IMG/VR virus record: IMGVR_UViG_3300021961_011210
Coordinates: 1-64,000 of that record
DNA length: 64,000 nucleotides
Direction: 5' to 3' (one strand)
DNA from: a virus
Both the position numbers and the translations under genes were made by a program. Below, piece by piece: positions 16,350 through 62,001 of this stretch. The notes beneath the pieces were generated by a model. It saw only the letters and a program-made list of their open reading frames with translations, was not told the DNA's origin and did no database searches. Within the stretch, counting starts at the first letter, position 1, and each line of letters begins with the position of its first letter.

Positions 16350-16781
16350 TTAATTATTGAATTTCAACATTACCGAACTGTAACCGTCCCATTGAGTGAT
16401 TTGTTTTTTGGTAATCCAAAAATCAAACTCACCAACTTTGTCGATTGCTTGGGAAACTTTTTGTTTGTAATCTTGGACTTGAGATTTGTCTTTTGGTTGT
16501 TTGACACCAATGTATTTTGAACACACAGGTCCGATACCCGACATTTGTGAAATTTCATCACGGAGGGTATGTGAGCAACAACGGCATTTCGTGCCTGTTT
16601 TTTCTGTCATCTTAGCTTTGAGGTGTACACGATCACCATCGAGTTCAATTACTTCGGTAACGTCAAGGACAATGGGAAAAAAACGTGTCTGATACGTATT
16701 TTTGATTTTCAAACCAACTTTACGCGCAATTTTGATGGTTTCACCAACAACAGGAATTTCTAAGGTAACTTTTTTGCTCAT
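16350..16781 (-). CDS. DUF6011-like zinc-binding protein
   Basis: 143 aa. The central motif CRCCSHTLRDEISQMSGIGP followed by VCSKYIG (about residues 71-97) has the spacing of the small DUF6011 zinc module (CxxC ... GIGPxC). The N-terminus is beta-rich and basic. The function of the family is unknown; nucleic-acid binding is likely. The ATG lies 18 nt after a host-type promoter element, and the next gene starts immediately downstream. Confidence 0.65.
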   Translation of the reverse strand: MSKKVTLEIPVVGETIKIARKVGLKIKNTYQTRFFPIVLDVTEVIELDGDRVHLKAKMTEKTGTKCRCCSHTLRDEISQMSGIGPVCSKYIGVKQPKDKSQVQDYKQKVSQAIDKVGEFDFWITKKQITQWDGYSSVMLKFNN

Positions 16782-16906: not shown

Positions 16907-17309
16907 TGGTGGAGGTGGCGGGAATCGAACCCGCGTCTTGCTCAGTCTAACCACAAAGGACTACATGCTTAGGACAAGGTTTTTCATACCTTCCGAACTA
17001 TCTGAGTTCTTACACCGCTCAGTGACGGCGACAGTCAAGTTGTAATTCGGGGTGACTATACCCCGTTTTGTTTCTTTTATGGTAGAAACCACACCGTAAG
17101 GACTTCTGTTCATAGGTTTAATGTCCATCGACCCGATTCGCTGTTGCGTCTTACGCTACAGTTACTTCTTCAGTACGTAGAAGACCTACAGCCTGAAGTT
17201 TTGCGAAAGTTTCGCCATTTAAAAATTGCCTCCATAGATTTAAGTGATAGGAAACCTCTCACTGCATGCCCCGTATGACTAACCCTGCCAATCAATACCG
17301 GTCACCCCC
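16907..17309 (-). ncRNA. ssrA: Transfer-messenger RNA (tmRNA)
   Basis: 403 nt on the - strand. The 5' end GGGGGTGACC and the 3' end GGGTTCGATTCCCGCCACC-TCC-ACCA pair to form a tRNA-Ala-like acceptor (GGGGGTG with CACCTCC) and carry an encoded CCA at 16909-16907. The T arm is GCGGG-TTCGATT-CCCGC. The resume codon GGC at 17216 opens a tag of 21 codons beginning GETFAKL and ending EEVTVA before TAA. tmRNA with SmpB rescues ribosomes stalled on broken mRNA; no smpB gene is visible here, so host SmpB would be used. The tag is longer than usual and lacks the ALAA end. A G3-T70 wobble is present in the acceptor. Confidence 0.93.
17151..17216 (-). other. tmRNA tag reading frame
   Basis: 21 codons plus TAA, with the resume codon GGC preceded by an A/T-rich stretch (TTTTTAAAT). 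Charged Ala would precede GET, as in Bacteroidota tags that start GE[NT]. The end EEVTVA differs from the ALAA-type degron that ClpXP recognises. Confidence 0.85.
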
Positions 17310-17417
17310 ATATTTTCAAAGAACTATTAAAAATCACTTTCACCCCCTGTATAGACATAACGTCAGATGCTTAAGGTCAGCCTTAACTATTAAGGGAGTC
17401 ACCCGTGATTTCTTATA

Positions 17418-17425
17418 CAAAGATA
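17418..17425 (-). promoter_or_regulatory. Host-type -7 element TATCTTTG upstream of tmRNA
   Basis: Matches TAnnTTTG, about 109 nt before the mature 5' end of tmRNA. The leader between them holds the hairpin CCTTAA-TAG-TTAAGG and an AAATCAC/GTGATTT pairing, and would need processing. A closer unseen promoter is possible. Confidence 0.4.
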
Positions 17426-17449
17426 AATACTTTTTTTTAACTGACAAGG

Positions 17450-17456
17450 TATTTAT
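17450..17456 (+). promoter_or_regulatory. Late promoter motif TATTTAT
   Basis: Exact 7-mer 13 nt before the GTG at 17470. Confidence 0.5.
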
Positions 17457-17469
17457 AATAAAAAAATAC

Positions 17470-18591
17470 GTGAAAAAGATTGTACGCCTTACTGAATCTG
17501 ATTTAGAAAAAATAATTAGAAGAGTATTAGAAGAACAACAGGAAAACCCAAATGTCAATTTTGTGGATGTTATTGGAGGAATCTTAAAAATCGAAGGTTC
17601 ATCTTTATTTTGGGCTCAAGACGAAAAAAGTCCTTACACAAAAATTTGGGATGAAAATGCGGTTTTTTCGTTCAAGGTTGACAAAACTCAAGGAAGGTAT
17701 GAACCAACAGGTTACTTTGGTTTGCAAGAAAAAATTTTTAGTCCTGATGGGTATACACGAACATATACATGGTCGAGTATGAAGTCTCTTGGAATTAATC
17801 CAAGAGGTGATAAATGGCAACGCCAAATCAACGATCAATCAATTTTATGTTATACTTTGACTACTAATAACGAAGTAAGTGGTACTGCAGTTTCAATTAT
17901 TGAGATGACAAATCGGCAGGTGAAAGAACAAACTGAGCTTTCTAGATTTGGGGCTTACAATGGAAAAAAATTAGAAAGAAGTCGTGAAGGTAATTTAGTT
18001 TGGGGTCAAACTTATGTTAGAATTGGTAGAAATAGAAATTTAGTTGTCGTAAAACTTTCGGGGAAATCTATATCAGGACAACCAGAGAGTATTCCAACAA
18101 TTCCACCAAAAAAAATAAAGCTAACTTTACCATTGGTGGATTCATTTTTGTTTGACACAATTGAGTTTGTAAATGATTCAGAAGCAAATCAAAAAATTAT
18201 GGATTTTGTAAATGATTTGAAAAAATACGATGAAATGTATCCCCAAACGTTTAGAAATCATGTAAAACAGTCAAAACCCGTTGTTTATGGTTATGCCTCT
18301 ATAGATGCCGATCCGAACGAATCTATAACAGGAAAATTCCAACCTTGCCGAGGTGAATCAACAAGAGGTGAGTATAACAAATGTCTATCGCAGCACAGAG
18401 CAGACAAACTTGCTGAAATTTTGAACAGTAACTTATCAGATGTAGAAATGAATGTATTTGAGGGTGTAGGTGTTGGTGAAACTGATAAATTTGCGAAAGG
18501 AATGAAGTGGCCTCAAGTAACTGATAACACAAAGACTGCACCTAACAGAAGGGTAGAAACTGTTATTGATGAATTTACTTTTGTTGAATAA
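17470..18591 (+). CDS. OmpA-like domain protein with putative capsid-targeting N-terminus
   Basis: 373 aa. The GTG at 17470 is chosen because a TATTTAT element precedes it and the upstream frame runs into tmRNA. The first residues (MKKIVRLTESDLEKI) are nearly identical to those of the protein at 19089, although the rest differs. An L-E-E site follows at about 19-21. The C-terminal third has an OmpA-type pattern: VYGYASIDADPNES, LSQHRADKLAEIL, FEGVGVGETDKF and APNRRVETVI, which in cell proteins binds peptidoglycan. In a virion it could bind the cell wall or act after ejection. No signal peptide is present. Confidence 0.7.
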   Translation: MKKIVRLTESDLEKIIRRVLEEQQENPNVNFVDVIGGILKIEGSSLFWAQDEKSPYTKIWDENAVFSFKVDKTQGRYEPTGYFGLQEKIFSPDGYTRTYTWSSMKSLGINPRGDKWQRQINDQSILCYTLTTNNEVSGTAVSIIEMTNRQVKEQTELSRFGAYNGKKLERSREGNLVWGQTYVRIGRNRNLVVVKLSGKSISGQPESIPTIPPKKIKLTLPLVDSFLFDTIEFVNDSEANQKIMDFVNDLKKYDEMYPQTFRNHVKQSKPVVYGYASIDADPNESITGKFQPCRGESTRGEYNKCLSQHRADKLAEILNSNLSDVEMNVFEGVGVGETDKFAKGMKWPQVTDNTKTAPNRRVETVIDEFTFVE

Positions 18592-19088: not shown

Positions 19089-20378
19089 ATGAAAAAAGTC
19101 GTCCGTTTAACTGAATCTGATTTAGAAAATATAGTTTTGAGAGTAATAAAATCACGTATCGATGAGCAAATGATAAGTGCAGGAGTCATCGACAGACCAG
19201 ATTTGAATCGTACTTATTCTACTTCGAAAGAAGATTTCAAGAAATTCGAAGCTGTTTTGGCAACAAGAGCTAAAGATAAATCGGAAGTTATTCAGCGTTA
19301 TGAATCGCAGGGTTACAAAAAAGATGAAAGTTTTACTCCTTTGGCTTTGCAATTGTATGCGCTTAGTAGTTCGGTGATGTCGTTAAAAAGAAACCCTGAA
19401 ACCAAAATTATGAGTTTGGAACCAGGGGAATCCTATAAAAAATATGAATCTTCTTTAAAAAAATTGGAATCTATGATGGATGAAGTTTCTTTGAAAGTAT
19501 GGGAGACCACTAAAGAGGTGAATCCAGCTTTTTATTTATTCATCTTTCGTAAAAGTGAGGATATATTAGGTTTATTATCTTCTGTACGTAAAAAAACTAG
19601 AAGTATTATTGTTGACAATTCAAAAACCATCCAAGATGTACCAAAAACTCCCGAGGAGGTTGAAGTACCAAGTTTAGCTTTTACTGATACAGATGTAAAT
19701 TTTGATAATAAATTTGCCACAGGTTCACCAAATCTTAAGTCAGAATACATCCAAGGATTTACACAATCTTTATCGAAAATGATGAAAGACACCAAAGATT
19801 TATTGATTAAAAATAATACAAATCCTGCTGTTAGTTTTCCTGGTAGAATTTATATCTCTGAAATAATAATCAAATCTTCATCATCTAAAGTTCCACAAAG
19901 TAAATTACCTGCTCCTTATACTACTGATCCAAACAACCCACAAGATACAACAGGGTTTTTAAACTTGTCAAAGGATAGGGCTGAATCTATGAAAAAATTG
20001 GTGGAAAAGTTTATCTCCGATAATTCAAGGATGGTATTTACAGATGAAAAAACAAAAATGGAGGTAGATTTCAAAGGGAAAAATGGAGATGGTACTTCTG
20101 GTATTCCATGGGACAAATCCAAAGGTTCACAAGATCCTGCTTATTTGGAGGCCCAATATGCCAACATTTATATTAAGTTTACTGTACAACCTAAAATCGA
20201 CACTACTCCCGAATCAACACCTGAACCTATTGAGACTAACGGATATGTTTTGAAAATTTCAGGTGAAAGAAGAGGTAAATTTTACATAGACTTCAACTTT
20301 ACACCACCTAATATGTCAATCGGAGGGTTTAAAGGATTTTCAGGTGGTGATGTATTATGTGACGCATACAAAGGATGA
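19089..20378 (+). CDS. Virion-type protein sharing the RLTESDLE leader, degenerate OmpA-like C-terminus
   Basis: 429 aa. The leader MKKVVRLTESDLENI is shared with the protein at 17470 and is followed by an I-D-E site near residue 27. The middle is helical. A C-terminal stretch (LNLSKDRAESMKKLVEKFI, then YANIYIKFTVQ) recalls the LSxxRAxxVxxxL helix of OmpA-like domains in a diverged form. The C-terminal 40 residues are beta-rich. It overlaps the next gene by 4 nt. Probably a packaged or tail-associated protein; the enzymatic role, if any, is unknown. Confidence 0.6.
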   Translation: MKKVVRLTESDLENIVLRVIKSRIDEQMISAGVIDRPDLNRTYSTSKEDFKKFEAVLATRAKDKSEVIQRYESQGYKKDESFTPLALQLYALSSSVMSLKRNPETKIMSLEPGESYKKYESSLKKLESMMDEVSLKVWETTKEVNPAFYLFIFRKSEDILGLLSSVRKKTRSIIVDNSKTIQDVPKTPEEVEVPSLAFTDTDVNFDNKFATGSPNLKSEYIQGFTQSLSKMMKDTKDLLIKNNTNPAVSFPGRIYISEIIIKSSSSKVPQSKLPAPYTTDPNNPQDTTGFLNLSKDRAESMKKLVEKFISDNSRMVFTDEKTKMEVDFKGKNGDGTSGIPWDKSKGSQDPAYLEAQYANIYIKFTVQPKIDTTPESTPEPIETNGYVLKISGERRGKFYIDFNFTPPNMSIGGFKGFSGGDVLCDAYKG

Positions 20379-21457
20379 TGAACAAAACCCAAGACATATT
20401 ACGTATAAAAAAATTAATGCTCCTCAAAGAAAATAGTGAGGAAAAAAATCCTGTTGATTTACTTTGGGATTATATTAACCAAGTGGATGGTGTTGAATAT
20501 GAACCTATTCCTAGTGAAAATATAAAGTATAATAAAAGGGAGGGGTATTTTTATTTTAATTTCTACGATTTTAAAGATTATTTGGAGTATTTTTTTCCCG
20601 AGTCAAACTCAGAGGATACTTTAAGTCATTGGGAATGGGCACTAAACGATCCGAGAGGGTATTTTAGAGATGAAGATAGAGATTCAGAATTTGAATCTGA
20701 AGATTATTATTTTAATTCTTTACCAAATTCTACCAAAAAAGAATTAGTTGAGTACGTCAGAGACAATTTTGGTTTATTTTTAGAAATGGAAAATGAAAAT
20801 TTACCTATGCAGATACAAGACTTATTTGCGGCATTGGGATTAGATGAAGATTGGGTTTATGCGTATGACAGTTCCACACATGAGGCTCACTTGGTAAATT
20901 TTGAATCTGATTTTTACAAAAATAATTGTGAAAGATTAGAAAAAATTGGTTTAGAAAAGATTTTATGTTTTGAACAATATCGTATCCGTCCTGAGCAATT
21001 GTTGATTATGTACTCAACTTTGGGGAATGACAAATTGAACTATGATGAAGTAATTCAAAGTTATTTAGAAAAAAAGAGAATTAGTGATGGTTTACCTGAG
21101 TATCCTTATGAATTTTTTTGGGAAAGTTGGGATGAAAAAACATTTCAAACCCTCTATAAGTCTGAATTCAATTATGTATTTAATAAATTCAAAAAATCTA
21201 TTGAAGAATTTGACACGAAAGAAAAGAAAAAATTCGGGACAATTTTCAAAAAAGTCGAAAAACTAGGTGGTTGGAATATGTGGATAGATACGGCGAATGG
21301 AGATAAGATTATGTTTGTTGATTACGATCCAACCACTAAAGAAATTGGGTATAGATTTAGAGATAAAACAAAATCAACCTGGCAAGCATCAGGTGGTAAG
21401 ACAAAAGATTTCCAAATGTTAGTCGATAAAATTAACAATTTAGAGTTAGAATTTTAA
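20375..21457 (+). CDS. Unknown 360-aa protein with putative leader
   Basis: The N-terminus (MMNKTQDILRIKKLMLLKE before Asn) fits the leader motif with an L-K-E site. The remainder is acidic and aromatic-rich (EGYFYFNFYDFKDYLEYFF) with helical segments and no recognisable domain. It is translationally coupled to the preceding leader-bearing gene (ATGA), which supports a joint virion role. The two ATG codons at the start cannot be resolved. Its last bases overlap the convergent peptidase gene. Confidence 0.6.
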   Translation: MMNKTQDILRIKKLMLLKENSEEKNPVDLLWDYINQVDGVEYEPIPSENIKYNKREGYFYFNFYDFKDYLEYFFPESNSEDTLSHWEWALNDPRGYFRDEDRDSEFESEDYYFNSLPNSTKKELVEYVRDNFGLFLEMENENLPMQIQDLFAALGLDEDWVYAYDSSTHEAHLVNFESDFYKNNCERLEKIGLEKILCFEQYRIRPEQLLIMYSTLGNDKLNYDEVIQSYLEKKRISDGLPEYPYEFFWESWDEKTFQTLYKSEFNYVFNKFKKSIEEFDTKEKKKFGTIFKKVEKLGGWNMWIDTANGDKIMFVDYDPTTKEIGYRFRDKTKSTWQASGGKTKDFQMLVDKINNLELEF

Positions 21458-22506
21458 TCTTCAAAATAAGTTTTGAGAATTTCATAGAATTCTTTAGCGT
21501 CATCATAACTCATCACAATATTGTCGTTTGTATAAGAATCTTCTAAAGTGAAACCAAAATCACTTTCTTTAATCACCAAGTCTGAAATATTGTAAACAAA
21601 TTCTTCATAGTGAAATTCTTCATCGTCTGAATAGTCCCATGGAGGTGTGATATATTTGAGATTTGATGAATCATACTTTTGATTAATAAAAGGTACTTTT
21701 TGAAATCCAAGTGTATTATAAACTTTCTCGGCTAATTTTATCGCAGAGTCAACATCACTAATTACAACAAACTCTTTGTTGGTGTGCATGTTGTAATATC
21801 CACAAGAGAAATTTATACAAGAAAAATCACCTTTCATCTTCAGTTGAGAAACATCAGTATATGGGTGTGATTGTTCCATGGGTAAAAACCCAAAGACAGA
21901 TTTATAAATATTTCTAATTGTTTTGATAAAATCACCATCTTTTTCATACAATCGAACTCCCGAGCAAATTTCGGTGACTAAGTGATCACCAGGAGCATCG
22001 AATTGTACTGCATAACCAACATCAGATAAAAAATTCAAATCACATCTAGAGGAACCGTGACAACCAGTCTCCTCGGAAACAAAAAACGCAACCTTTATTG
22101 TTGGTAAATTTCTCAGTAATTCGAGACAAATGAAAATACCAGCCTTATCGTCACCACCGATACCAGTCTCTAAACCTTCAGTTGTATATGCCTTTAGAGA
22201 ACGGTGAGAAAAATCATCGAAAGATTTTCCAAATGTTGTTGGTTTATAAAGATATTCTTCTTTTACAACAATTTCATCAATCAGGGAGTGAACGGTATCG
22301 GTATGTGACAAAAACAATGGGTAATATTCCCCTTCGGAAATGGAACCTTTTGTTGCGTAGATATTGTTGATGGAGTCCCTGAAAAAGGTAACCCCTTCAA
22401 TTGTTTCCAAAACATCACAAATGTGTTCTACCATTTTTTCTTCCGAGTAAGTTTTACTCGGTACGGATAGAAGTTTTTTGAATCGTTCAAGTTGTATTGG
22501 TTCCAT
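21454..22506 (-). CDS. M20-family peptidase (peptidase T-like)
   Basis: 350 aa. Metal and catalytic motifs of the M20 family are in order: LSHTDTVH (His/Asp, about residues 65-72), GIGGDDKAG (about 116-124), VSEETGC (Glu-Glu, about 138-144), an Asp in FDAPGD, and CGYYNMHTNKEF (His near the C-terminal third). This is the pattern of tripeptide aminopeptidase PepT and relatives, cytoplasmic di-zinc enzymes that trim small peptides. It has its own TAATTTTG promoter and lies next to clpC, so a joint role in protein turnover is plausible. It is somewhat shorter than cellular PepT (about 410 aa). Confidence 0.82.
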   Translation of the reverse strand: MEPIQLERFKKLLSVPSKTYSEEKMVEHICDVLETIEGVTFFRDSINNIYATKGSISEGEYYPLFLSHTDTVHSLIDEIVVKEEYLYKPTTFGKSFDDFSHRSLKAYTTEGLETGIGGDDKAGIFICLELLRNLPTIKVAFFVSEETGCHGSSRCDLNFLSDVGYAVQFDAPGDHLVTEICSGVRLYEKDGDFIKTIRNIYKSVFGFLPMEQSHPYTDVSQLKMKGDFSCINFSCGYYNMHTNKEFVVISDVDSAIKLAEKVYNTLGFQKVPFINQKYDSSNLKYITPPWDYSDDEEFHYEEFVYNISDLVIKESDFGFTLEDSYTNDNIVMSYDDAKEFYEILKTYFED

Positions 22507-22544: not shown

Positions 22545-22573
22545 TAATAAAAAAGGGGATTATTCATCCCCTT
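22545..22573 (-). terminator. Terminator of clpC
   Basis: On the - strand the 8-bp stem AAGGGGAT/ATCCCCTT (5-nt loop) overlaps the clpC stop codon and is followed by a T tract. Confidence 0.8.
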
Positions 22574-24581
22574 CAATTAAAACCACTTTTTTATCTACAA
22601 AATCCAAAGTGTATGGAGTTTCGGGTATTATATTTTTTTTCAAAACTTCTTCTGAAATGAAATCTTCAATTTTTTCTTGTATTGCTCGTTTGATTGGACG
22701 AGCTCCGAACTTATCGTCAAAACCCTCTTTACCTATCATTGTTTTTACACTGTCAGTAACGAAAATTTCGTATTTCATTTCCTTGAGACGTTGTACCAAT
22801 TTATTGATTTCAATATCAACAATTTGAGTGATTTCATTTTCCTTGAGGGAGTTAAATACTACTACGTCGTCGATACGGTTTAAAAACTCCGGAGTGAAAT
22901 AATTTTTGAGTTCTTTTTGCAGAAGTCTATTACGTGTTTCGTCTTTGTCATTTTCTTTAGCCACTGTATCGAACCCTACTCCAGTCCCAAAGTCCTGTAG
23001 TTTTTTGACTCCCAAGTTAGATGTCATGATAACCAAAGTATTTTTGAAGTTAATCTTCCTTCCCATACTGTCGGTTAAGTGCCCATCGTCCAAAACTTGA
23101 AGTAGAAGTGAGAAGATATCACGGTTTGCCTTTTCAATTTCATCAAAAAGCACTACTGAATACGGTTTGTTTTTTACCGCCTCGGTGAGTTGTCCGCCTT
23201 CTCCGTGTCCGATGTATCCGGGAGGTGAACCAATCAAACGACTCATTGAGTGTTTTTCTTGATACTCAGACATATCTACACGAATGAGTGCGTTTTCATC
23301 TCCGAAAATTTCCTTTGCAAGTTGTTTTGCTAAGTGTGTTTTACCAACACCGGTAGAACCTAAGAAAACAAATGAACCAATTGGACGATTTGGATCTTTG
23401 ATACCTACACGGTTTCGTCGGATAGACTTAGAAATTTTACTAACAGCCTCCTGTTGTCCAATGACTTTTTTGTTTAGATTGGTTTCCAAGTTAAGTAAGG
23501 ATTCACTTTCATCAACGGTTAGTTTAGTTAAAGGGATTTTAGTCATCGAAGAAACTACTTCGTAAACGTGGTCTTCTGTAACCAAACTACGGTTGGTATT
23601 TGAATCCTCCTCGAACTTACGTTTTTCATCTTCGAGCTTTTTCAAAATTTTCTTTTCTTTATCACGAAGTTGAGCAGCCTCTTCATATTTTTGGCGTTTA
23701 ACCACCAACAATTTTTCTTCTTTGATGTTGAGAGCTTCTTGTTTCAATTTTTCGATAATTTCAGGTAACTTCATGTTAACCTGACTACGAGCACCGACTT
23801 CATCCATGATGTCAATCGCTTTATCGGGAAATCCACGATCAGTAATATAACGATCCGCCAATGTTACACAGAGTTTAAGAGACTCATCACTATATAGAAC
23901 TTTGTGATGGGATTCATATTTGTCTTTGATTTGTAAAAGAATTTCGAAGGTTTCTTCAGGTGTAGTTTGATCTACAAAGACTTTTTGGAATCGACGTTCT
24001 AATGCACCATCTTTTTCAATATGTTCACGGTATTCGTCCAAAGTAGTGGCACCAACACATTGGAGTTCACCTCGTGCAAGTGCGGGTTTGAATATGTTTG
24101 ATGCATCTAATGAACCTGATGAGTTACCTGCTCCAATTATGGTGTGAATTTCATCAATAAACACAATAATGTCACGATTTTCTTGTAGTTCATCCAAAAT
24201 AACTTTCAAACGTTCTTCAAATTGTCCACGGTATTTTGTACCTGCCACGATTGATGTCATATCCAAAGATACGATACGTTTATCTGCAAGATTTTGAGGA
24301 CAGTCCCCTTGGAATATTTTCATTGCTAGCCCTTCAATGATGGCGGTTTTTCCTGAACCAGGTTCTCCAATAATGATTGGGTTATTTTTTTTCCGACGAG
24401 ATAGGATTTGTGCTATTCGGTTGATTTCTTGCTCCCTACCTATGACGGGGTCCAATTTTCCTTGTTCTGCTAATCTAATCAAGTCTCTTGAAAAATTATC
24501 CAAAACAGGTGTTGAGGAATTTATAGTTTCCGAACGATTCTTACGAGAACCTTTTTCGTTGGGATCTGCCGATTCAATCAT
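22560..24581 (-). CDS. clpC: ClpC-type AAA+ unfoldase lacking the N-domain
   Basis: 673 aa from the ATG at 24581 ([11 protein letters not shown]); the longer upstream frame is not used because a TACCTTTG promoter lies inside it. Two AAA+ modules are complete: Walker A GEPGSGKT (72-79) and GSTGVGKT (408-415), Walker B FIDEIH (141-146) and LFDEIE (478-483). A UVR motif ([13 protein letters not shown], 299-311) lies in the linker, marking ClpC rather than ClpB. The loop TGVGF (533-537) may be the ClpP-binding loop. The N-terminal Clp_N domain, normally about 150 aa, is missing. It would unfold proteins for host ClpP. Divergent from hsp20 across two operators. Confidence 0.9.
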
Positions 24582-24600
24582 GTTTCTAATATTTGTTTTA

Positions 24601-24766: not shown

Positions 24767-25135
24767 ATGTTTTTGTCAACACGTAGAAATTCATTGTTAG
24801 ATCACTTTTTCAATTCTTGGGAAGTACCAACCGTTACTTACAGTACTACAGGGAATTATTCAACTAAAAAAAATGAGTCGGGTTATAATTTTGAAATGAT
24901 TGTACCTGGCTCTAATAAAGAAAATGTTAAAGTAACTGTTGAGGGTGAATACTTAAAAATAAAATGTAAGTATGAATCTGATTTTCAGTCATACGATATT
25001 GATAAGAGTTTTTCCATACCTGAAGATGTTGAAACATCAAAAATCAAAGCAACTGTCGAAGATGGAATATTAAAAGTCAATCTCCCATTGATGAAGAAAA
25101 AAGAAAAAGAAAAAAACATTATAGAAGTTCTTTGA
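24767..25135 (+). CDS. hsp20: Small heat-shock protein (Hsp20/alpha-crystallin)
   Basis: 122 aa. The alpha-crystallin domain spans about residues 35-122: YNFEMIVPGSNKENVKVTVE, YLKIKCKY, the YDIDKSFSIPEDVETSKIKA stretch, then the signature EDGILKVNLPL. The N-terminal arm is short and the C-terminal IIEVL supplies the I-x-V type anchor. It would hold unfolding proteins as an ATP-independent chaperone in the cytoplasm. It is divergent from clpC and shares its control region, so the two are probably induced together. A strong terminator follows. Confidence 0.92.
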   Translation: MFLSTRRNSLLDHFFNSWEVPTVTYSTTGNYSTKKNESGYNFEMIVPGSNKENVKVTVEGEYLKIKCKYESDFQSYDIDKSFSIPEDVETSKIKATVEDGILKVNLPLMKKKEKEKNIIEVL

Positions 25136-36664: not shown

Positions 36665-36704
36665 AGAGTAAAATAAACCAAAACGTTTGCAAAAAAAAAT
36701 AAAG

Positions 36705-38237
36705 ATGAGTAATAAAGAAAAATCTTTAGTTGAAGAGGCATTACTACAAATGAAAAATTTGGAAGAAGCCGTTACACAAAACGCAAAAGGAATACTTGCT
36801 TCTACAATGAAGGAAGAAATCAAAGAATTAGTAAAAGAATCTCTTGAAGAAGAGATTGAAGAAGGAATGGAGATGAAAAGTTCAGAAGAAGAAAAAGAGT
36901 CAAATATGGCTGAACAAGCAGAAATGGAACTTGATATCGACGACACAGAAGAGGAATCTGATGAAGTAGAAAATGACGAAGAGGAAATCGAGTTAGATTC
37001 TATGGATATCGATTCTGATGAATCTGACGAGGAAGAATTCGAACTTGGAATTGACGACGAGGAAGTTATGTTACCACTTGATTTGACAGGTGCATCTGAT
37101 GAAGAAATTTTGAAGGTGTTCAAGGCAATGGGTGACGAAGACGGAATCATTGTTAAAAAGGACGGGGAAGAAATCCACTTGAAAGATGAGACTTCTGATG
37201 TTGAATATAAAATTGATCTTGGTGAGTCAGAAGAAGAGGAATCTATCGATGAAATGATGGATGACGATTTTGAAGATTTGGATGAAATCGTTTATGAAAT
37301 CGAACTCGATGAAGAAGAGGACGATGACGATGACGAGGAAGAAATGATGTCAGAAGAAAAAATGACAGTTTCTCCGAAAGGTGAAGGAATGGGTAAACCT
37401 AAATTCAAGTATCCTTCTAAAATGAAGGGTGGTGTTACTGAAACTGAAGACATCGAAGAGATGACTGAAGGTGAAATGTCAGTAAAACCAAAAGGTGAAG
37501 GAATGGGTAAACCTAAATTCAAGTATCCTTCTAAAATGAAGGGTGGTGTTACCGAAACCGAAGATGTCGAAGAAATGGAAGAAGAATGGGGAGGTAAGAA
37601 AGGTGATGACTCTAAGTCTCACAAAGATTACGAAACTACTGAAGAGTGGGGAGGTAAGAAAGGTGACGACTCTAAGTCTCACAAAGATTACGAAACTACT
37701 GAAGAGTGGGGAGGTAAGAAAGGTGACGACTCTAAGTCTCACAAAGATTACGAAACTACTGAAGCTGCACGTACACTCGGAAACGGGAAAAGAAATGCAG
37801 CTAACAGACATTCTTTACCAAAAATGAAAGTAATTCCAAATCAAGCTCTAGCGGAAGAAGTTGAATCATTGAGAGCTAAAAATGACGAATACAGAAAAGC
37901 TCTTAACATATTCAAAGACAAGCTCAACGAAGTTGCAGTATTCAATTCTAATCTCGCATATGCTGTTAGACTATTTACTGAAAACTCCACGACTAAACAA
38001 GAAAAAATAAACATCCTAAGAAGATTCGACAATGTTGAAACTTTAAAGGAATCAAAAGCTCTTTATAAGACAATCAAAGATGAGTTGGTACCACAGTCAG
38101 TTGTTAGTGAGTCTGTTGAAACAAAATTACAACAAACACCAACTGCAGGTTCTTCAACAACTTTGATTGAGAGCAAAACTTATGAAAATCCTCAATTCCA
38201 AAGAATGAAGGATTTGATGGGTAAATTAAATAAATAA
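36705..38237 (+). CDS. Prohead scaffold/core protein (gp22-like) with internal repeats
   Basis: 510 aa from the ATG at 36705. Position between protease and capsid protein is that of T4 gene 22. The N-terminal half is extremely acidic (long Asp/Glu runs), as expected for a scaffold. The middle holds two 38-residue repeats with the core KGEGMGKPKFKYPSKMKGG and three 20-residue repeats EEWGGKKGDDSKSHKDYETT. The C-terminal 150 residues form a coiled coil (LAEEVESLRAKNDEYRKAL). T4 gp22 is only about 270 aa, so the repeat region is an expansion. It should be degraded by the protease during maturation. Confidence 0.82.
   Translation: MSNKEKSLVEEALLQMKNLEEAVTQNAKGILASTMKEEIKELVKESLEEEIEEGMEMKSSEEEKESNMAEQAEMELDIDDTEEESDEVENDEEEIELDSMDIDSDESDEEEFELGIDDEEVMLPLDLTGASDEEILKVFKAMGDEDGIIVKKDGEEIHLKDETSDVEYKIDLGESEEEESIDEMMDDDFEDLDEIVYEIELDEEEDDDDDEEEMMSEEKMTVSPKGEGMGKPKFKYPSKMKGGVTETEDIEEMTEGEMSVKPKGEGMGKPKFKYPSKMKGGVTETEDVEEMEEEWGGKKGDDSKSHKDYETTEEWGGKKGDDSKSHKDYETTEEWGGKKGDDSKSHKDYETTEAARTLGNGKRNAANRHSLPKMKVIPNQALAEEVESLRAKNDEYRKALNIFKDKLNEVAVFNSNLAYAVRLFTENSTTKQEKINILRRFDNVETLKESKALYKTIKDELVPQSVVSESVETKLQQTPTAGSSTTLIESKTYENPQFQRMKDLMGKLNK
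37377..37573 (+). repeat. Two-copy 114-bp repeat inside the scaffold gene
   Basis: The block starting AAAGGTGAAGGAATGGGTAA occurs at 37377 and again at 37491, with about 70-80 nearly identical bases each. It encodes the KGEGMGKPKFKYPSK units. Confidence 0.85.
37581..37760 (+). repeat. Three tandem 60-bp repeats inside the scaffold gene
   Basis: Copies at 37581-37640, 37641-37700 and 37701-37760 start GAAGA[AG]TGGGGAGGTAAG and are almost identical. They encode three 20-residue units and keep the frame. Confidence 0.95.
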
Positions 38238-49380: not shown

Positions 49381-50142
49381 TCAATCACTGAACTTTTTCA
49401 TAAGTTCATAATATAAAGTTTTATATTTTTTAAGAGAACTTCTTATTTCTTTTGTTGACATGTTAGTCATCTCCCTTAAAGAAAGTAAAATTATATTTTT
49501 ATTAAATTTGTTGTTGTCGTTACCTATAAAAATTTCGTTGTAGTTTTCGAATAAATCAACTAACGCCTGTCCAAGTTTTCTTTCGTTAGAATTCAAATCA
49601 TTTTCGTTAATAAAATCTTTGAGGTCTTTAAGAAACTGTTTTATTATTTGTTCGGGTTCGACTTTTTCAAATTCTAAATAATAAATCATATCAGGACGAT
49701 TTTCTAAGGTAGATGATATGTCTTCATATGAAATTTTACGGTTAATTTCTTTTTGATCCTTAATTATTTGTCCCATCAAATAATTTTTACAGATTGTGCC
49801 AAAGTAGGAATAGGCTTTTTTGTTTTTGTCTGGTTTGAATTTATCTACTTTTGTGATTAAAAAAGAGTGAGTGTCATTATGAATTTCTATAAAGTCCATA
49901 TCTTTTCTATAAAGTTTATACCTTCTAATAATTGATTCAATCATCTTATCAAGAGGTGCTTTCAAGAATTCATTATAAATTGCATTTTTTTCGTATGAAG
50001 TTTGGGCGGAAAGAAACAATCTTACCGCCTCCTCTTCACGTACGTCAAAATAGTTATTATTAGTGGGTTTACGTCCTCTTTTTTTAGCCTCTGGTTGATC
50101 TACCAAATTCAAAGAGGTTCCACTTATCACATCCAAAGTCAT
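49381..50142 (-). CDS. gp55-like late sigma factor
   Basis: 253 aa. Residues about 75-130 (DFIEIHNDTHSFLITKVDKF, KPDKNKKAYSYFGTICKNYL, then MGQIIKDQKEINRK) reproduce the sigma region 2 pattern of T4 gp55: a helix ending in a K-F-x-P loop, an aromatic YSYF motif and a basic helix for promoter opening. The C-terminal part (LSLREMTNMSTKEIRSSLKK) may be a region-4-like helix-turn-helix that T4 gp55 itself lacks. It would redirect host RNA polymerase to the TATTTAT promoters. It is the last gene of the sugar operon (TAATG overlap). Confidence 0.72.
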   Translation of the reverse strand: MTLDVISGTSLNLVDQPEAKKRGRKPTNNNYFDVREEEAVRLFLSAQTSYEKNAIYNEFLKAPLDKMIESIIRRYKLYRKDMDFIEIHNDTHSFLITKVDKFKPDKNKKAYSYFGTICKNYLMGQIIKDQKEINRKISYEDISSTLENRPDMIYYLEFEKVEPEQIIKQFLKDLKDFINENDLNSNERKLGQALVDLFENYNEIFIGNDNNKFNKNIILLSLREMTNMSTKEIRSSLKKYKTLYYELMKKFSD

Positions 50143-50945
50143 TAATCATTTTCAGGTTGATATTTTATTCCCCTGTCATCTGTAAAAAAATATTCTTTTT
50201 TTGCAGATTCAATCCAAAATTTCACCTCGTCATCTGACATTTTTGCTGTGTTATTTTTGTAATTCCAAAATATCGAACCCTCTCTCATGTTGGTGTGTTT
50301 GTAACCTATTTTCGGAATCGTCATAATTTTTGCCGAATTGTAAGTTAGTCTAAGTAGTAGTTCATAGACAAAGGTTAACTTAAAGGAAGGTTTAAAAGCA
50401 CCAAATTCTTCAATTGTACTTTTTCTGATTACCATACCACTTGATTGAAAGTTTTGGTAAGCTAATAACATTTCATTTGTTAAATATCCAATTTCAGCGG
50501 TCATACTGGCTGCGAATGTTGCTTCATTAGTGAAACCCGCAAAAGTTCCTTTGTCGTCTACATCTACAACCAACGGTAAAAATCCGTCAACATCCGAATA
50601 AGCTTCCATGTATTCTGCGACGTTTTTGAACCAAATTGACGAATATTCGTCGTCAAATTCGTAAAATGACAACCACTCAGACTTAGCATTCTGAACACCA
50701 ATCGAAATTTGATTGGCATACGAAAAATCATTTTGATTGGCAACGATATTGACTGTAAGTCCGCTGAAGTCGAAATTTGACAAATAGTTTTTTAGACTTT
50801 CTTCGTTTGAATGAACAATCACTAATTCGTTAATATTTACTGATTGATTTTTAAGCGATAAAACCGCTTTTGTAAAATATGATTCAAAATCTTTTGCCTT
50901 TGAACTACTGATTGGTAGTATAACTGATATATCTAATTTTTTCAT
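50142..50945 (-). CDS. Family 2-type glycosyltransferase
   Basis: 267 aa. The Rossmann-like GT-A start (DISVILPISSSKAKDFESYF, INELVIVHSNEES) is followed by an acidic DxD-like motif in SFYEFDDEYSSIWF (about residues 92-105). The C-terminal part has KIGYKHTNMREGS. Probably transfers a sugar in phage-directed polysaccharide or virion glycan synthesis. It overlaps its neighbours by 1 and 4 nt. Confidence 0.72.
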   Translation of the reverse strand: MKKLDISVILPISSSKAKDFESYFTKAVLSLKNQSVNINELVIVHSNEESLKNYLSNFDFSGLTVNIVANQNDFSYANQISIGVQNAKSEWLSFYEFDDEYSSIWFKNVAEYMEAYSDVDGFLPLVVDVDDKGTFAGFTNEATFAASMTAEIGYLTNEMLLAYQNFQSSGMVIRKSTIEEFGAFKPSFKLTFVYELLLRLTYNSAKIMTIPKIGYKHTNMREGSIFWNYKNNTAKMSDDEVKFWIESAKKEYFFTDDRGIKYQPEND

Positions 50946-52009
50946 TGTTCTGATTCGTTTTTAATTTTTTCAACTTGGGATTCAAAATTCTGTAATCTCA
51001 ATTGGTTATATTCGTTAAAAAGATGAAAAATATTTTTGTTAAATTTCTCATAGTCAACGTATTGTTGTGCGGTTTCGTAACCTGCAGTGTATATTTCTTC
51101 TGAAATATTATCCTCTAACCAATTTTGAGTAAATTCTGCTAAAGTATCGACAATATCCAAATACTCTGTTGTCCAAACTCCGTTGGTTTCATTCATCCAT
51201 TCGGGACGTAGATGTGGGATTTTTCCAATAACGGGTGTTCCTGAAATCATAGATTCGAGTGGAAAACTCCCAAACGCCGAATTATCATCAACCCATACAG
51301 AAACAAAACTTTCTTTCAAATTTTGAGCAAATTCTTCTAAGGATAATCCTCTCATGTCTCTAAATGTTATCCAACGGTATTGAGGATATTTCAAATAAAA
51401 AGTTTTGATAATTTTCATTGCATCTCTCTGATCTCGTGTGTGGATTGTCACAACAGGTAAAGGTGGTTTTTGTTTCTTTGTGAACCCTTTATAAATAATT
51501 GGTTCCAAAACATCTATAGATACACTTTTAAAAATTGACGATAAATAATTTTTTTGTGTTTCGGATGTTGTTATTGCTTTGTAAGTACCAAACTGAACCC
51601 AAGTCGATCCAGGTGCTAGTGTTTCAAGTGCATAATCATATGCTTGACATAAAACAATTTTTGCACAAGGTAGATTTGAAACCTGCTCAAGTGCGTGAGC
51701 AAAAAGTTCAGGAATTACTAAAATATCTTCAGGAGAAACTTGTAATTTTTGTTCTTCAATGTTCTGATGAGGAATTTCAGACATATACTCCTCACCCAAC
51801 CAACTTGCAACCCCGTCGTATTCTTTTTTTTCGTGTAAGATAATCGGGTTGAATCCACTATTTTTAAGTGACATTGCAATGTCGTAGATGTGTTTTATTC
51901 CTGCCTTCGCATTTCCTTTTGTATCTTGGGTTAAAAAGAAAATTTTATTTTCATTTTTTCTCAATATGTCGATAGACTTGAGAATTTTTTCTTGTAGTTC
52001 TTGACTCAT
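50942..52009 (-). CDS. GT-B-type glycosyltransferase
   Basis: 355 aa. Two Rossmann-like halves are suggested: KIFFLTQDTKGNAKAGIKHI at the start and a donor-binding half with PVVTIHTRDQRD ... VDDNSAFGSFPLESMISGTP followed by VIGKIPHLRPEW. The E in FPLESM matches the EAM-type acidic residue of GT4 enzymes. The C-terminal helix is a charged coil. Substrate unknown. Confidence 0.72.
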   Translation of the reverse strand: MSQELQEKILKSIDILRKNENKIFFLTQDTKGNAKAGIKHIYDIAMSLKNSGFNPIILHEKKEYDGVASWLGEEYMSEIPHQNIEEQKLQVSPEDILVIPELFAHALEQVSNLPCAKIVLCQAYDYALETLAPGSTWVQFGTYKAITTSETQKNYLSSIFKSVSIDVLEPIIYKGFTKKQKPPLPVVTIHTRDQRDAMKIIKTFYLKYPQYRWITFRDMRGLSLEEFAQNLKESFVSVWVDDNSAFGSFPLESMISGTPVIGKIPHLRPEWMNETNGVWTTEYLDIVDTLAEFTQNWLEDNISEEIYTAGYETAQQYVDYEKFNKNIFHLFNEYNQLRLQNFESQVEKIKNESEQ

Positions 52010-52013
52010 TTGG

Positions 52014-52283
52014 TTAAATACTTTTGATAATATTATTAACTAATAATGTATTAAATGCAATTCTAAAGGGAATACTTACTTCTTTGGATTTGCTTGACAA
52101 CATTTCATCCATCGGTTCATGTTCAGACATTATTACTTCAACCATTGTTTTCATTATTTCAAATTTTATTGGACTAATGGTTGATTCATTTTCTTGAGAA
52201 TCCTGAGAATTTGATTCTGTTCTTGTTTCTAATTCTTTTAGATCCAAGTAATAGGTTTCACCCCAAATCTTAAACATTGACAT
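52014..52283 (-). CDS. Unknown 89-aa protein
   Basis: A short soluble protein (MSMFKIWGETYYLDLKELE ... FNTLLVNNIIKSI) with a Ser/Gln/Glu linker. No family recognised. It overlaps the HAD gene by 14 nt. Confidence 0.55.
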   Translation of the reverse strand: MSMFKIWGETYYLDLKELETRTESNSQDSQENESTISPIKFEIMKTMVEVIMSEHEPMDEMLSSKSKEVSIPFRIAFNTLLVNNIIKSI

Positions 52284-52881
52284 TTTCTATTATTTTTTGA
52301 ATTGATGGTAAAAACTCTTCAATGGTATCGATGCATATTTCAGAGTTGACTTCACTATTATAAAGTTTGTTAAATTTTACAATTTGTGTATTGTTTTTTT
52401 GATTTTTTATTAAATCCGGATTTGCCGTTAATATTAAATCAAAATCATCCCAAAGTTTATCTTCTGTCAGTTTGGAATAAAAACGTATATTTTCGACTAA
52501 ACATCCATATTTTGCAAGAAAAAATAGAGTTGCCGGTTTGCTTTTCTCCATTTCCTCAGAGATGATAGTGATTTCGTGATTATCTCTTAATTTTTTATAT
52601 ATCTCATCCAAAACATTAAATGTGTTACCGCTCACTGATGGAGAGTGCCCAAAAATTTCCATTGGGAAGTCCACATAAAAAAAATCATAAAAAGATTCTT
52701 CAGTTGGGAAGGAAAAATGATTGGATAGTGTGGTGGATGTGATAGGCAAATTCAAAGAGTATTCAAACTCATCTTCACCCTCTTCTCTTACATAATCCTC
52801 AATAAAAAATTTACGGTAAACTTGTTCCGCTTTACGAAGTGTATCTCTAATTACACCATTTATGTCTATAGCAATTTTCAT
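52270..52881 (-). CDS. HAD-like phosphatase
   Basis: 203 aa. Motif I reads IAIDINGVIRD (Asp5; the second Asp of DxD is Asn7, an uncommon change), motif II is ITIISEEMEKS (about 105-115) and a lysine near KSKPATLFFLAKYG may serve as motif III. It recalls 5'-nucleotidase-type HAD proteins. In a sugar operon it could dephosphorylate a heptose bisphosphate (GmhB-like), which the pathway needs between kinase and adenylyltransferase, but the Asn raises doubt about activity. Confidence 0.55.
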   Translation of the reverse strand: MKIAIDINGVIRDTLRKAEQVYRKFFIEDYVREEGEDEFEYSLNLPITSTTLSNHFSFPTEESFYDFFYVDFPMEIFGHSPSVSGNTFNVLDEIYKKLRDNHEITIISEEMEKSKPATLFFLAKYGCLVENIRFYSKLTEDKLWDDFDLILTANPDLIKNQKNNTQIVKFNKLYNSEVNSEICIDTIEEFLPSIQKIIENVNV

Positions 52882-52882
52882 C

Positions 52883-53635
52883 TTATATTAGTTTTTTTGA
52901 CGGTAAGGCAACTCCACGTTTTGATACAACTTCAGCCGACATTTCATTTGCAAAATTTATTGCCATTTCAATGTCTTTATGTAAAAAATAATGACATGAA
53001 AATGATGAAAGAAATGTGTCACCAGCGCCACTTACATCTATCGTTTCTTGCGGATTAGGGGATGGGTATATTTTGTCATTATATCTGACGCCTTCTTTAC
53101 CTAAAGTCACAATAACATTTGTTTTTTTTACCATTGTTTTATTCAATTCAGATTCACCTTTATTCATTTTAATGAACGAATAATTGATAACTTTTTTTAA
53201 ATTTAGTTTTTTTTTGGAATCTAAAAAAGATAATTCAGAATTCTCCGAAATATATTTTAAATCATTTTGACTTAAAAACCCTTTGTTATAATCACTCACC
53301 ACAACAAAATCGTATTTTTTCAACTTTTTTGGTTTGAGTTGTTTTCGGTCGAATCGGGTTATTTTTGATTCCCCTTCATCGAATCTTAAAAACATGTGAT
53401 TCGATTTTTTTTCCACAAATCTAGTTTTGGTTATTTTTTCTTTTTGATGGTAAAAATCTATACGAGCATCAGGGCAAAGTTTCTTAAGGTTTTGATAGAC
53501 ATTTCCCGCCATTCCCATGTTTGATACCGTATCTATTGGATTTAAAATAGGAACAGGGGCTTCAGGACAAATTCTGTCTGCAGTACAATAAATGAAATTA
53601 TCTTCACAAAGTTCTCCTACCACTAATATTTTCAT
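52883..53635 (-). CDS. hldA: PfkB-family heptose-7-phosphate kinase (HldA-like)
   Basis: 250 aa, shorter than usual (about 315-330). The signature ADRICPEAPVPILNP (about 19-33), MGMAGNVYQNL (40-50) and the catalytic anion-hole motif DVSGAGDTFLSSF (200-212, base Asp206) match the kinase half of HldE/RfaE. It would phosphorylate D-glycero-beta-D-manno-heptose 7-phosphate at C1. The adjacent 141-aa adenylyltransferase overlaps it by 32 nt, so the two HldE halves are encoded separately. The middle of the protein looks trimmed, and the lid region is short. Confidence 0.8.
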   Translation of the reverse strand: MKILVVGELCEDNFIYCTADRICPEAPVPILNPIDTVSNMGMAGNVYQNLKKLCPDARIDFYHQKEKITKTRFVEKKSNHMFLRFDEGESKITRFDRKQLKPKKLKKYDFVVVSDYNKGFLSQNDLKYISENSELSFLDSKKKLNLKKVINYSFIKMNKGESELNKTMVKKTNVIVTLGKEGVRYNDKIYPSPNPQETIDVSGAGDTFLSSFSCHYFLHKDIEMAINFANEMSAEVVSKRGVALPSKKLI

Positions 53636-54029
53636 TCTGTAATATTTTTGTTGTTGAGTATTCTTCTATCCTGTCAAAAAATATGATTTCTTTCACATAT
53701 TGTGAACCTATGATTTTTTTATTTTTATAATCACTACCTATAACCATATAATCGATATCTAAATTTTTGATTATAGTTTCTAACTCTTCGTCTGATGAAA
53801 AACTGTAAACTTCATTTATATTTTTAAGGTATTTTAAAAATTCAATTCTATCTGACAATTTGTTGAAAGGACGATCAGTCCCCTTCAATTGTTTTACTCT
53901 TTCATCAGTGTCTACCCCAACAAATAAATTACCGAAGTTTGATGCAAATTCAAATAGACGTATGTGTCCGATATGGAGGACATCGAATGTTCCATTAATC
54001 CAAACTCGTTTCGGGTATGGTATTAACAT
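53604..54029 (-). CDS. hldC: Heptose-1-phosphate adenylyltransferase (HldC-like)
   Basis: 141 aa, the size of the HldE C-terminal domain. NGTFDVLHIGH (12-22) contains the HxGH nucleotide-binding motif; VGVDTDERVKQLKG and RPFNKLSDRIEFLKYL follow, as in HldE/HldC. It would make ADP-heptose from heptose 1-phosphate. It overlaps the kinase gene and starts at the end of the cupin gene. Other cytidylyltransferase-fold enzymes (TagD-like) are the alternative, but the kinase neighbour favours heptose. Confidence 0.8.
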   Translation of the reverse strand: MLIPYPKRVWINGTFDVLHIGHIRLFEFASNFGNLFVGVDTDERVKQLKGTDRPFNKLSDRIEFLKYLKNINEVYSFSSDEELETIIKNLDIDYMVIGSDYKNKKIIGSQYVKEIIFFDRIEEYSTTKILQNENISGRRTL

Positions 54030-54418
54030 TATTTTTGACTATCTCCTTTCCAAACTCTATATGAATCCGAATCGTAATGTGTGGTTGAAACCTCATATAT
54101 GATACCATCGGTAAGTGCTAACAATTGGTGTGGTTGTCCCGGACGTTGACGAACCGAGTCACCAACAACTAAAGCTTCTTGCTCTACCTCTGCGGTTTCA
54201 GTATTTATCCATTTGTAAATAAATTCACCCTCCTGTACATACCATGTCTCATCTTTAATCATGTGGTAATGCATTGAGAAACTAGCCCCTTTTTTGAACA
54301 CCAATAATTTACCACAATAAAGTTCGTTGTTTTCAAAAACAATTTCATGTCCCCAACCTTTGGGGATATGACACCCTTCACATTCACTTACATTTTTAAC
54401 AATTGGTTTTTCCATCAT
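54029..54418 (-). CDS. Cupin protein, sugar-isomerase-like
   Basis: 129 aa single cupin. The metal-binding motif 1 is HYHMIKDETWYVQEG (His, His, Glu; about 49-63) and motif 2 includes RPGQPHQLLAL (His about 97). KGWGHEIVFENNELYCGKLL precedes them. This small cupin type resembles the C-terminal domain of mannose-6-phosphate isomerase/GDP-mannose pyrophosphorylase and is often found in capsule loci. It might modify a hexose or heptose intermediate; the reaction is not assigned. Confidence 0.65.
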   Translation of the reverse strand: MMEKPIVKNVSECEGCHIPKGWGHEIVFENNELYCGKLLVFKKGASFSMHYHMIKDETWYVQEGEFIYKWINTETAEVEQEALVVGDSVRQRPGQPHQLLALTDGIIYEVSTTHYDSDSYRVWKGDSQK

Positions 54419-54426
54419 ATTTCAAT

Positions 54427-55413
54427 TTAATATATTGAGTCGTTGTAATAGTTCATCCAATATTCAACCATTTCATCCAACATGGTTTCGAATGAATATG
54501 TAGGACTCCATCCCGTTGTATTTTTAAGTTTATTATTATCACCCTTCAAATCGTTTAGCTCTTCAGGGCGTAGAAATTTCTCATCCATGGTAACATATTC
54601 TTTGTAGTCCAAATCAAGACTTGAGAATACGTATTCACACAAATCTCTAACTGAGTGAGAAATACCCGTAGAACAAACAAAATCATCGGGAGATTCTTGT
54701 TGGAGGATTAACCACATTGCCTCAACATAATCTTTAGCGTGTCCCCAATCTCGGGTGGCTTCTAAGTTACCCAATTTTAACTCATTTGACAACCCAAGTT
54801 TAATTTTTACGGCTTCTTTTGCTACTTTGTTTGTTACAAAGTTTGTGCCTCTACGTGGGGATTCATGGTTGAAGAGTATGCCATTTGATACAAACATGTT
54901 GTAAGAGTTTCTGTAGTTTCTACAAATGTTGTAAGAATATACTTTTGCACACCCATATGGTGATACTGGATTCATAGGTGTTGTTTCTCTTTGAAAACCA
55001 TCTTCGTCTATTGAGTTTCCAAACATTTCAGATGAAGATGCCTGATAAATTTTGGTATTTGGTTTAATTAATCTGACAGCTTCTAGTAAATTCAAAGTAC
55101 CAACACCTGTTACTTGTGCAGTATAGATTGGTTGATCGAAAGAAATTCTTACATGAGACTGTGCGGCTAAATTGTAGATTTCATCAGGTTGTACTTTTTG
55201 AATTGTATTTACCAATGAAGACAAATCAGTCATGTCTGCGTAATGTAAGTTTGATTTAATTTTATCATAGATAGAATCCAATCTAAATGTTTGATTTTCT
55301 GAAACAGAATTTCTTTTGAGAGTACCATGTACCTCGTATCCTTTGTTGATTAAAAATTCTGCAAGATAACTACCATCTTGTCCGTTTATACCTGTTATTA
55401 ATGCTTTTTTCAT
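54427..55413 (-). CDS. gmd: GDP-mannose 4,6-dehydratase
   Basis: 328 aa extended short-chain dehydrogenase. Cofactor motif TGINGQDGSYLAEF (7-20), active-site SSSEMFG (126-132) and YxxxK in SPYGCAKVYSY (Tyr153, Lys157). The motif NHESPRRGTNFVTNKV and RDWGHAKDYVEAMW are specific for Gmd. It converts GDP-D-mannose to GDP-4-keto-6-deoxymannose in the cytoplasm. It directly precedes, in transcription order after, the ColD- and ColC-like genes with a 4-nt overlap, so the three form a pathway. Confidence 0.94.
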   Translation of the reverse strand: MKKALITGINGQDGSYLAEFLINKGYEVHGTLKRNSVSENQTFRLDSIYDKIKSNLHYADMTDLSSLVNTIQKVQPDEIYNLAAQSHVRISFDQPIYTAQVTGVGTLNLLEAVRLIKPNTKIYQASSSEMFGNSIDEDGFQRETTPMNPVSPYGCAKVYSYNICRNYRNSYNMFVSNGILFNHESPRRGTNFVTNKVAKEAVKIKLGLSNELKLGNLEATRDWGHAKDYVEAMWLILQQESPDDFVCSTGISHSVRDLCEYVFSSLDLDYKEYVTMDEKFLRPEELNDLKGDNNKLKNTTGWSPTYSFETMLDEMVEYWMNYYNDSIY

Positions 55414-56567
55414 ATGTGTTTGTTAACTATTTCAATTACTCTATCTAATTCTTCTTCTGTCATTAAGTGATTGTTCGGAATATACATTCCATATTCGTGT
55501 ACTCGTTTTGCTATTGGTAAGTCGACTTTTTCGAATCTTTCATACCAAAATGGGTGCTCATTTATAGAACCACAAATCAGAGGACGGCATTCTATGTTAT
55601 TTTCCATTAACTCCTTAGTTAATTCTTTAATATTTTCTGTAATAATCGGATACGAAAAATTAGAAACCATAGAGTGAGGTTGGGGATTTATTTTCCAACC
55701 GTCTGTTTTAATTTCTCGGTGGTATTTTAAAAAATTTTTATTTCTATTAAAAACAATATCATCTAACTTTTCTAATTGTTGGAGTCCTATGAATGCTTGT
55801 AAATCTGTTGCTCTCAGATTAAATCCGGGATAATAAAATGTGTATAAAGCCCGAAAATCACCTATACCATATTTTTCTCTAAGTTGTTTCTGCTTTTCAA
55901 TCGGTAAATCTCTGTCCCATCCATGAGAACGAATAGATAAAAGAATATGATAAAGTTCTTCAGAATTTGTGGATACCATTCCACCCTCTATTGTGGACAT
56001 GTGGTGTCCAAAATAAAATGAAAAAGTAGATAAATCACCAAAAGTCCCGAGTTTTTGTCCATCGTACATGGTACCAGTTGATTCACAAGTATCTTCGATA
56101 AGAAGTATATCATGTTCCTTACACAATTCCATAATTTCATTCATGTGATTTGGAAAACCTAATACATGTACAAGTATTATACATCCGGGGTTTTCCTTTT
56201 CTATAATTTCCTTCAGGTGGTTGATATTTAATCCCAAATTATCTTCATCACATTCACACATGATGGGTGTCATACCGAGTTGTACTGCGGGAGTTACTGT
56301 AGTTACCCAAGATACTGCGGGGACGACAATCTTGTTATTTTTCAATTTACCTGAAAGTAATAAAGAATATACCGCAGCTAAGTTTGCAGAAGAACCTGAG
56401 TTAACAAATACAGAATATTTTACACCCAACCACTCAGACCATTTTTGTTCGAATTCAACATTCAACTGTCCTTTTGTTAAACGAGGGTTAGTCTTTAACC
56501 ATTCAATAAGTTTTTCGATATCTTTGGTATCGATGGTGTCTTTAACTAAATCAATTTTATTCATCAC
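55410..56567 (-). CDS. colD: ColD-like GDP-4-keto-6-deoxymannose 3-dehydratase
   Basis: 385 aa, DegT/DnrJ/EryC1 aminotransferase fold. The PLP pocket motifs NSGSSANLAAVY (56-67) and EDTCESTGT (158-166) are present, but at the PLP-lysine position the motif is FSFYFGHHMSTIEGGMV with His188 instead of Lys. A His there is the hallmark of ColD and related 3-dehydratases, which remove the C3 hydroxyl rather than transaminate. It would act on the Gmd product with pyridoxal phosphate and glutamate. Neighbours Gmd and a Fcl/ColC-like reductase complete a GDP-L-colitose route. Confidence 0.88.
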   Translation of the reverse strand: MMNKIDLVKDTIDTKDIEKLIEWLKTNPRLTKGQLNVEFEQKWSEWLGVKYSVFVNSGSSANLAAVYSLLLSGKLKNNKIVVPAVSWVTTVTPAVQLGMTPIMCECDEDNLGLNINHLKEIIEKENPGCIILVHVLGFPNHMNEIMELCKEHDILLIEDTCESTGTMYDGQKLGTFGDLSTFSFYFGHHMSTIEGGMVSTNSEELYHILLSIRSHGWDRDLPIEKQKQLREKYGIGDFRALYTFYYPGFNLRATDLQAFIGLQQLEKLDDIVFNRNKNFLKYHREIKTDGWKINPQPHSMVSNFSYPIITENIKELTKELMENNIECRPLICGSINEHPFWYERFEKVDLPIAKRVHEYGMYIPNNHLMTEEELDRVIEIVNKHI

Positions 56568-58548: not shown

Positions 58549-58549
58549 A

Positions 58550-62000: not shown

Positions 62001-62001
62001 A

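Follow-up and report, generated by a model that had tools for sequence, protein, structure and literature searches.

A conserved tmRNA tag without the ALAA end, encoded beside a ClpC-type unfoldase in a group of very large, uncultured phages

In Bacteroidota, the one-piece transfer-messenger RNA (tmRNA; ssrA, RF00023) consists of a tRNA-like domain with a G3-U70 pair and a T-arm, a pseudoknot (PK1), a tag reading frame that starts with G[EN], and a downstream pseudoknot. We analyzed a tmRNA gene with all of these features in a window of 64,000 nucleotides, positions 1 to 64,000 of the IMG/VR virus record IMGVR_UViG_3300021961_011210 (a contig of 72,885 bases, itself a fragment). The gene differs from Bacteroidota ssrA in its tag, which belongs to a family of 21-22 residues with a conserved interior and an end of the -VTVA type, whereas the Bacteroidota tags have 8-10 residues and end in A[LM]AA. 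The tag family is carried by a group of very large, uncultured phages. We consider it probable that these phages run a trans-translation module with its own degradation tag, read mainly by a phage ClpC working with ClpP; we infer the reader, the tagging, and the expression of the module from sequence.

A longer, altered tag that is read by another protease is known from Mesoplasma florum, where the reader is Lon, and this is a precedent for a protease switch (PMC9382460). The mf-ssrA/mf-Lon system and the phage locus are alike in the longer tag and its changed C-terminus, and the Mesoplasma reader is not ClpXP, while the phage reader proposed here is only a candidate. They differ in that the Mesoplasma system belongs to a bacterial genome without active ClpXP, whereas the phage tag has an unrelated sequence and ClpC-ClpP as its candidate reader. 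Mycobacteriophages, phage G, Streptomyces phages, and Melnitz-like marine phages also have a tmRNA gene on the phage genome, but their annotated tags, among those compared, end in ALAA, unlike the present family. Both tmRNA and SmpB have been reported in huge phages (Al-Shayeb et al. 2020, PMC7162821). Phage genomes of 635 and 642 kb encode a ClpC with 57-59% identity to that of the window, but neither shows a tmRNA that passes the Rfam cut-off or a tag of this kind. In the literature we found no report of a conserved non-ALAA tag family tied to phage ClpC and ClpP, the supplementary tables of the tmRNA database lying outside the coverage, and no paper on phage-encoded ClpP. Judged by the literature and the annotated phage records that were searched, the tag family, its tie to phage ClpC, ClpP, and SmpB, and its contrast with host tags appear to be new.

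The tmRNA gene and its fold

The tmRNA gene lies at 16907..17309 on the minus strand and has 403 nt with the CCA encoded. A first-pass annotation of this DNA had proposed a full tmRNA gene with encoded CCA, and ARAGORN and the Rfam covariance model now agree on it with identical coordinates. The match to RF00023 covers the full model at 86.7 bits (E 3e-32; curated cut-off 47 bits). In the acceptor stem, 5' GGGGGUG (17303-17309) pairs with CACCUCC (16911..16917, minus strand) ahead of ACCA, and the stem includes G3-U70, the identity pair for alanine, which is present in 49 of the 51 tmRNAs of relatives. PK1 (gene positions 47-82; 17228..17263, minus strand) stands just upstream of the resume codon, the tag frame is closed by a stop, and a second pseudoknot (PK2, gene positions 176-210; 17100..17134, minus strand) follows downstream of the tag.

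Covariation across 30 relatives agrees with this fold. The 31 named base pairs of the acceptor stem, T-arm, PK1, and PK2 were formed in 90.3% of alignment cells, with 107 two-sided changes compared to 37 in shuffles, and slid versions of the structure were only 44-55% formed. The covarying parts are the T-arm of the tRNA-like domain and both pseudoknots; the acceptor stem gave a less clear signal because the aligned sequences have ragged 5' ends. The PK1 helices were paired in 93% and 86% of cells (two-sided changes in 8 of 11 pairs), and those of the downstream pseudoknot in 100% and 96% (4 of 8 pairs). All features that were tested place the tmRNA within the known family.

The tag family and its contrast with host tags

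Relatives were collected from viral contigs with three baits: the phage terminase, the phage ClpC, and a tmRNA 3'-end pattern. The gene next to the tmRNA (16350-16781) was also used as a bait and found no relatives in viral contigs. A tmRNA above the Rfam cut-off occurs in 37 of 50 related records, and a profile of the tag adds three more (G009, G010, and G042), so the tag is present in at least 40 of the 50. The remaining ten records are contigs with lengths between 28 and 59 kb.

The tag frame with its stop occupies 17151..17216 on the minus strand (gene positions 94-159). It reads GGC GAA ACU UUC ... GUA GCG UAA and encodes 21 residues, GETFAKLQAVGLLRTEEVTVA*; the tag profile matches at 17154-17216 (E 1e-13). 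The frame was checked by comparison because in the tag and in the pseudoknots after it the Rfam alignment is loose, with low posteriors. ARAGORN and the relatives' tags, which form one family, support the 21-codon frame read in the first-pass annotation. The related phage contigs hold 51 tmRNAs (45 distinct sequences, 42 distinct tag frames, and 39 distinct peptides), and because they all give the same tag family, the frame is not a chance one; the pattern of variation by codon position also rules this out. For several relatives, ARAGORN reported other tags (AEEATVVA, EKKQNPCLSGMEG, and EKEQTLIIRG), but these had wrong starts or places, and translation from the resume codon of the alignment recovered the family tag. 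An ALAA, AMAA, or LAA end was looked for in every frame up to 30 nt from the resume codon and was found in none of the 45 distinct tmRNAs.

The family pattern of the tags, over 21-22 residues, is G[NED]x[LFI]xK[ML]xxxGLxRxxEVxVA. Among 38 distinct frames of 21 codons, G1 and G11 never change and K6 (35/38), L12 (37/38), and A21 (37/38) vary little, while V18 (31/38) and V20 (28/38) are less fixed. A sub-group has 22 residues and ends in the manner of -QDELVNVA. The tag is under selection at the protein level. Entropy of the tag frames is highest at the third codon position and lowest at the second (18.9, 11.7, and 27.7 for positions 1, 2, and 3). The median pN/pS over all pairs is 0.59, which is probably an overestimate because pS is high (0.57). 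In a 16-sequence subset the ratio was 0.58 compared to a column-shuffle mean of 0.97, and none of 60 shuffles was as low. These results bear on the idea that the phage tmRNA is a decoy titrating host tmRNA or SmpB, like the tag-less form of phage DS6A, an idea that finds a supporting passage in PMC11915505. A decoy is very improbable here, because the full tag frame, the resume site, and the pseudoknots are all conserved under selection.

Borrowing of the tag from a phage or host protein was considered and rejected, since profile searches gave only tmRNA tags and weak hits. In 26 phage records, the profile had two weak matches beyond the tmRNA tags (E 0.2 and 0.87), and in 296 Bacteroidota genomes it had one (E 0.006), which is about chance level. 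There was no tblastn match to the tag in 50,697 records of isolated or annotated phages, a search in which short queries are found less reliably. None of the window's own long open reading frames has a tag-like C-terminus, although they are too few to be informative. The tag of another viral contig, L167 (8265-8673), also has 21 residues but is of a different kind, AKNNLPTVASNDSDFHMAIAA.

The host phylum is likely Bacteroidota, judging from the nearest sequence matches. Among annotated terminases, the best matches come from Flavobacterium phages (28.5%), and the 635 and 642 kb genomes with the similar ClpC fall in the size range (>634 kb) predicted to replicate in Bacteroidetes (PMC7162821). 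Thirty chromosomal tags of Bacteroidia, drawn from the best-scoring loci (of three additional loci, ARAGORN misplaced the tag at one and gave none at two), are 8-10 residues long, and every one ends in ALAA or AMAA. None of the 39 phage peptides has such an end, and the two sets have only the G[EN] start in common. The window tag is thus not a short Bacteroidota tag, and the contrast that the first-pass annotation had drawn with ALAA-type host tags stands.

The same annotation proposed that a tag with this end may escape degradation or go to another protease, but -VTVA does not rule out ClpXP. E. coli tags altered to end in LVA, AAV, or SVA serve as degradation tags (PMC9382460), and because -VA and -AAV-type ends are tolerated there, host ClpXP is the main rival reader. 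The tag could then be an ordinary degron, with host ClpXP (or host ClpA/C or Lon) reading its hydrophobic-Ala end, an interior that drifts or serves an adaptor, and a phage tmRNA that adds tagging capacity. The terminal alanine in 37/38 distinct 21-codon frames, some of them with AA, is consistent with this. We nevertheless judge it rather unlikely, as 0/39 phage peptides end in ALAA or AMAA compared to 30/30 host tags, divergent phages keep both the internal motif and the tag length, and an unfoldase is present in the tmRNA's own block.

The ClpC block and the candidate reader

The unfoldase gene (22560..24584, minus strand) encodes a ClpC-type double-ring AAA+ protein of 674 aa, identified by Pfam, by a PDB match, and as part of a 41-member family. 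It aligns with S. aureus ClpC (PDB) at 770 bits, beginning only at residue 143, and the N-terminal adaptor-binding Clp domain is missing; the open frame upstream is 0-41 codons in relatives and 60 in the window, where by inspection it is not an N-domain. Both AAA+ rings are present, and the KYRG and GY[VI]G pore loops and both Walker A/B motifs are intact in 41/41 ClpC sequences. The same is true of the [VIM]GF loop that docks ClpP (GVGFD in the window, MGF in one relative).

Two genes separate ClpC from the tmRNA. One encodes a peptidase with weak M20/M42 (PepT-like) matches (21454..22506, minus strand; PF05343/PF01546, NCBIfam PepT), and the other a phage protein of unknown function (20375..21457, plus strand); both families are kept in 13/13 compared neighborhoods. 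On the other side, an Hsp20 small heat-shock protein gene (24767..25135, plus strand; PF00011, E 9e-15) is divergent from ClpC. The order in the 13 neighborhoods is ClpC, PepT-like peptidase, conserved phage protein, and then tmRNA where it was located; in most of them ClpC is flanked on its far side by a small heat-shock-like protein. SmpB directly adjoins the tmRNA in two relatives. ClpC was found in 17/19 records picked by terminase alone and in one picked by the tmRNA pattern alone, so the link between tag and ClpC was not made by the bait.

ClpP (about 170-196 bits) is encoded in 16/37 IMG/VR related records and in 5/7 of the records larger than 150 kb. All of these proteins belong to the ClpP fold family and have a GM[AC]ASMG-type serine motif, and in one that was checked residue by residue the Ser, the MLHQ His, and the RD Asp align with the triad of solved ClpP. 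SmpB is less frequent (3/37).

Conservation of the tag and its selection as protein imply a reader. ClpC is the best candidate because loss of the N-domain removes adaptor control and because the pore needs an unstructured tail, such as the tag would supply. Degradation is favored over mere release because of the ClpP loop of ClpC and the phage ClpP genes. The suggestion in the first-pass annotation that phage ClpC is an alternative protease is therefore the one we favor. In the proposed mechanism, the phage tmRNA would be charged with alanine and, with SmpB (supplied by the host for most of these phages and encoded by a few of them), would enter stalled ribosomes and release them. The tail A-GETFAKLQAVGLLRTEEVTVA would be added to the stalled product and read mainly by the neighboring phage ClpC, not through the host ALAA/ClpXP route. 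Without its N-domain, ClpC may take the unstructured tail directly into its pore and hand the product to ClpP, which many relatives encode themselves and which the host would supply elsewhere. Final breakdown of the peptides may fall to the PepT-like peptidase of the same block.

Rescue without degradation, which the first-pass annotation had also raised, would mean that the tag evades host proteases and rescued phage products persist. That every member has lost the ALAA end fits this idea, but persistence would need no conserved 21-residue motif selected as protein, and the tag keeps its hydrophobic-Ala C-terminus. With an intact ClpP loop in the linked ClpC and ClpP brought by many relatives, we find it improbable. 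It is similarly hard to credit that the tail is an address, by which unfinished phage proteins are sent to a phage structure or to a chaperone, for example a disaggregase of ClpC and Hsp20. The conserved hydrophobic spacing of the tag, the adjoining Hsp20, and the phages that have ClpC without ClpP would suit such a role. However, the ClpP loop is kept even in phages without ClpP, and the profile search of phage records found no tag-like stretch in other phage proteins.

Several observations weigh against reading by ClpC-ClpP. Conservation of the tag together with ClpC may only reflect a shared neighborhood, and some tags end in VYAA or VVAA, near the ordinary ssrA end. The window's 72.9 kb record, a fragment, contains neither ClpP nor SmpB. 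No ClpP was found in two large relatives of 154 and 304 kb (G030 and G054; L117 and L141) that have the tag and a ClpC with the VGF loop, so host ClpP would be needed there. The tag-less 635-642 kb genomes (LR745206 and LR756502) encode ClpC, ClpP, and SmpB, so their related ClpC does not need the tag. A stronger form of the favored reading is more tentative, and we hold it to be possible but doubtful: a self-contained, orthogonal quality control in which the phages' own tmRNA (with their own SmpB in some) writes a private degron that is read only by their N-domain-less ClpC with ClpP, away from host ClpXP and adaptor control.

Other features of the window may deserve attention. Similar short N-terminal motifs occur in several phage proteins, including those starting at 10332, 11608, and 20375 (the conserved protein of the block) and others at 17380-17500 and 19089. 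They have the form (I/R)L(R/K)(I/L)(K/Q)x(L/I)(M/I) or KK(V/I)VRLTESDLExI(V/I)xRV, the second also in relatives L094 and L128, and are perhaps a head-targeting or propeptide signal. An acidic protein at 36687-38237 contains near-identical tandem repeats, EEWGGKKGDDSKSHKDYETT. A long run of genes resembling sugar-nucleotide and glycosyltransferase genes, identified by inspection only, extends over 50142-63971 (GDP-mannose dehydratase, fucose synthase, aminotransferase, kinase-like, and nucleotidyltransferase-like).

Significance for phage trans-translation

A conserved non-host tag encoded beside its candidate reader bears on the question of why phages carry tmRNA. If ClpC-ClpP does read the tag, this would be a second natural protease switch for the ssrA tag, after Mesoplasma, and a possible orthogonal degradation tool. 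It would also be a case of a virus that supplies a degron's reader along with its writer.
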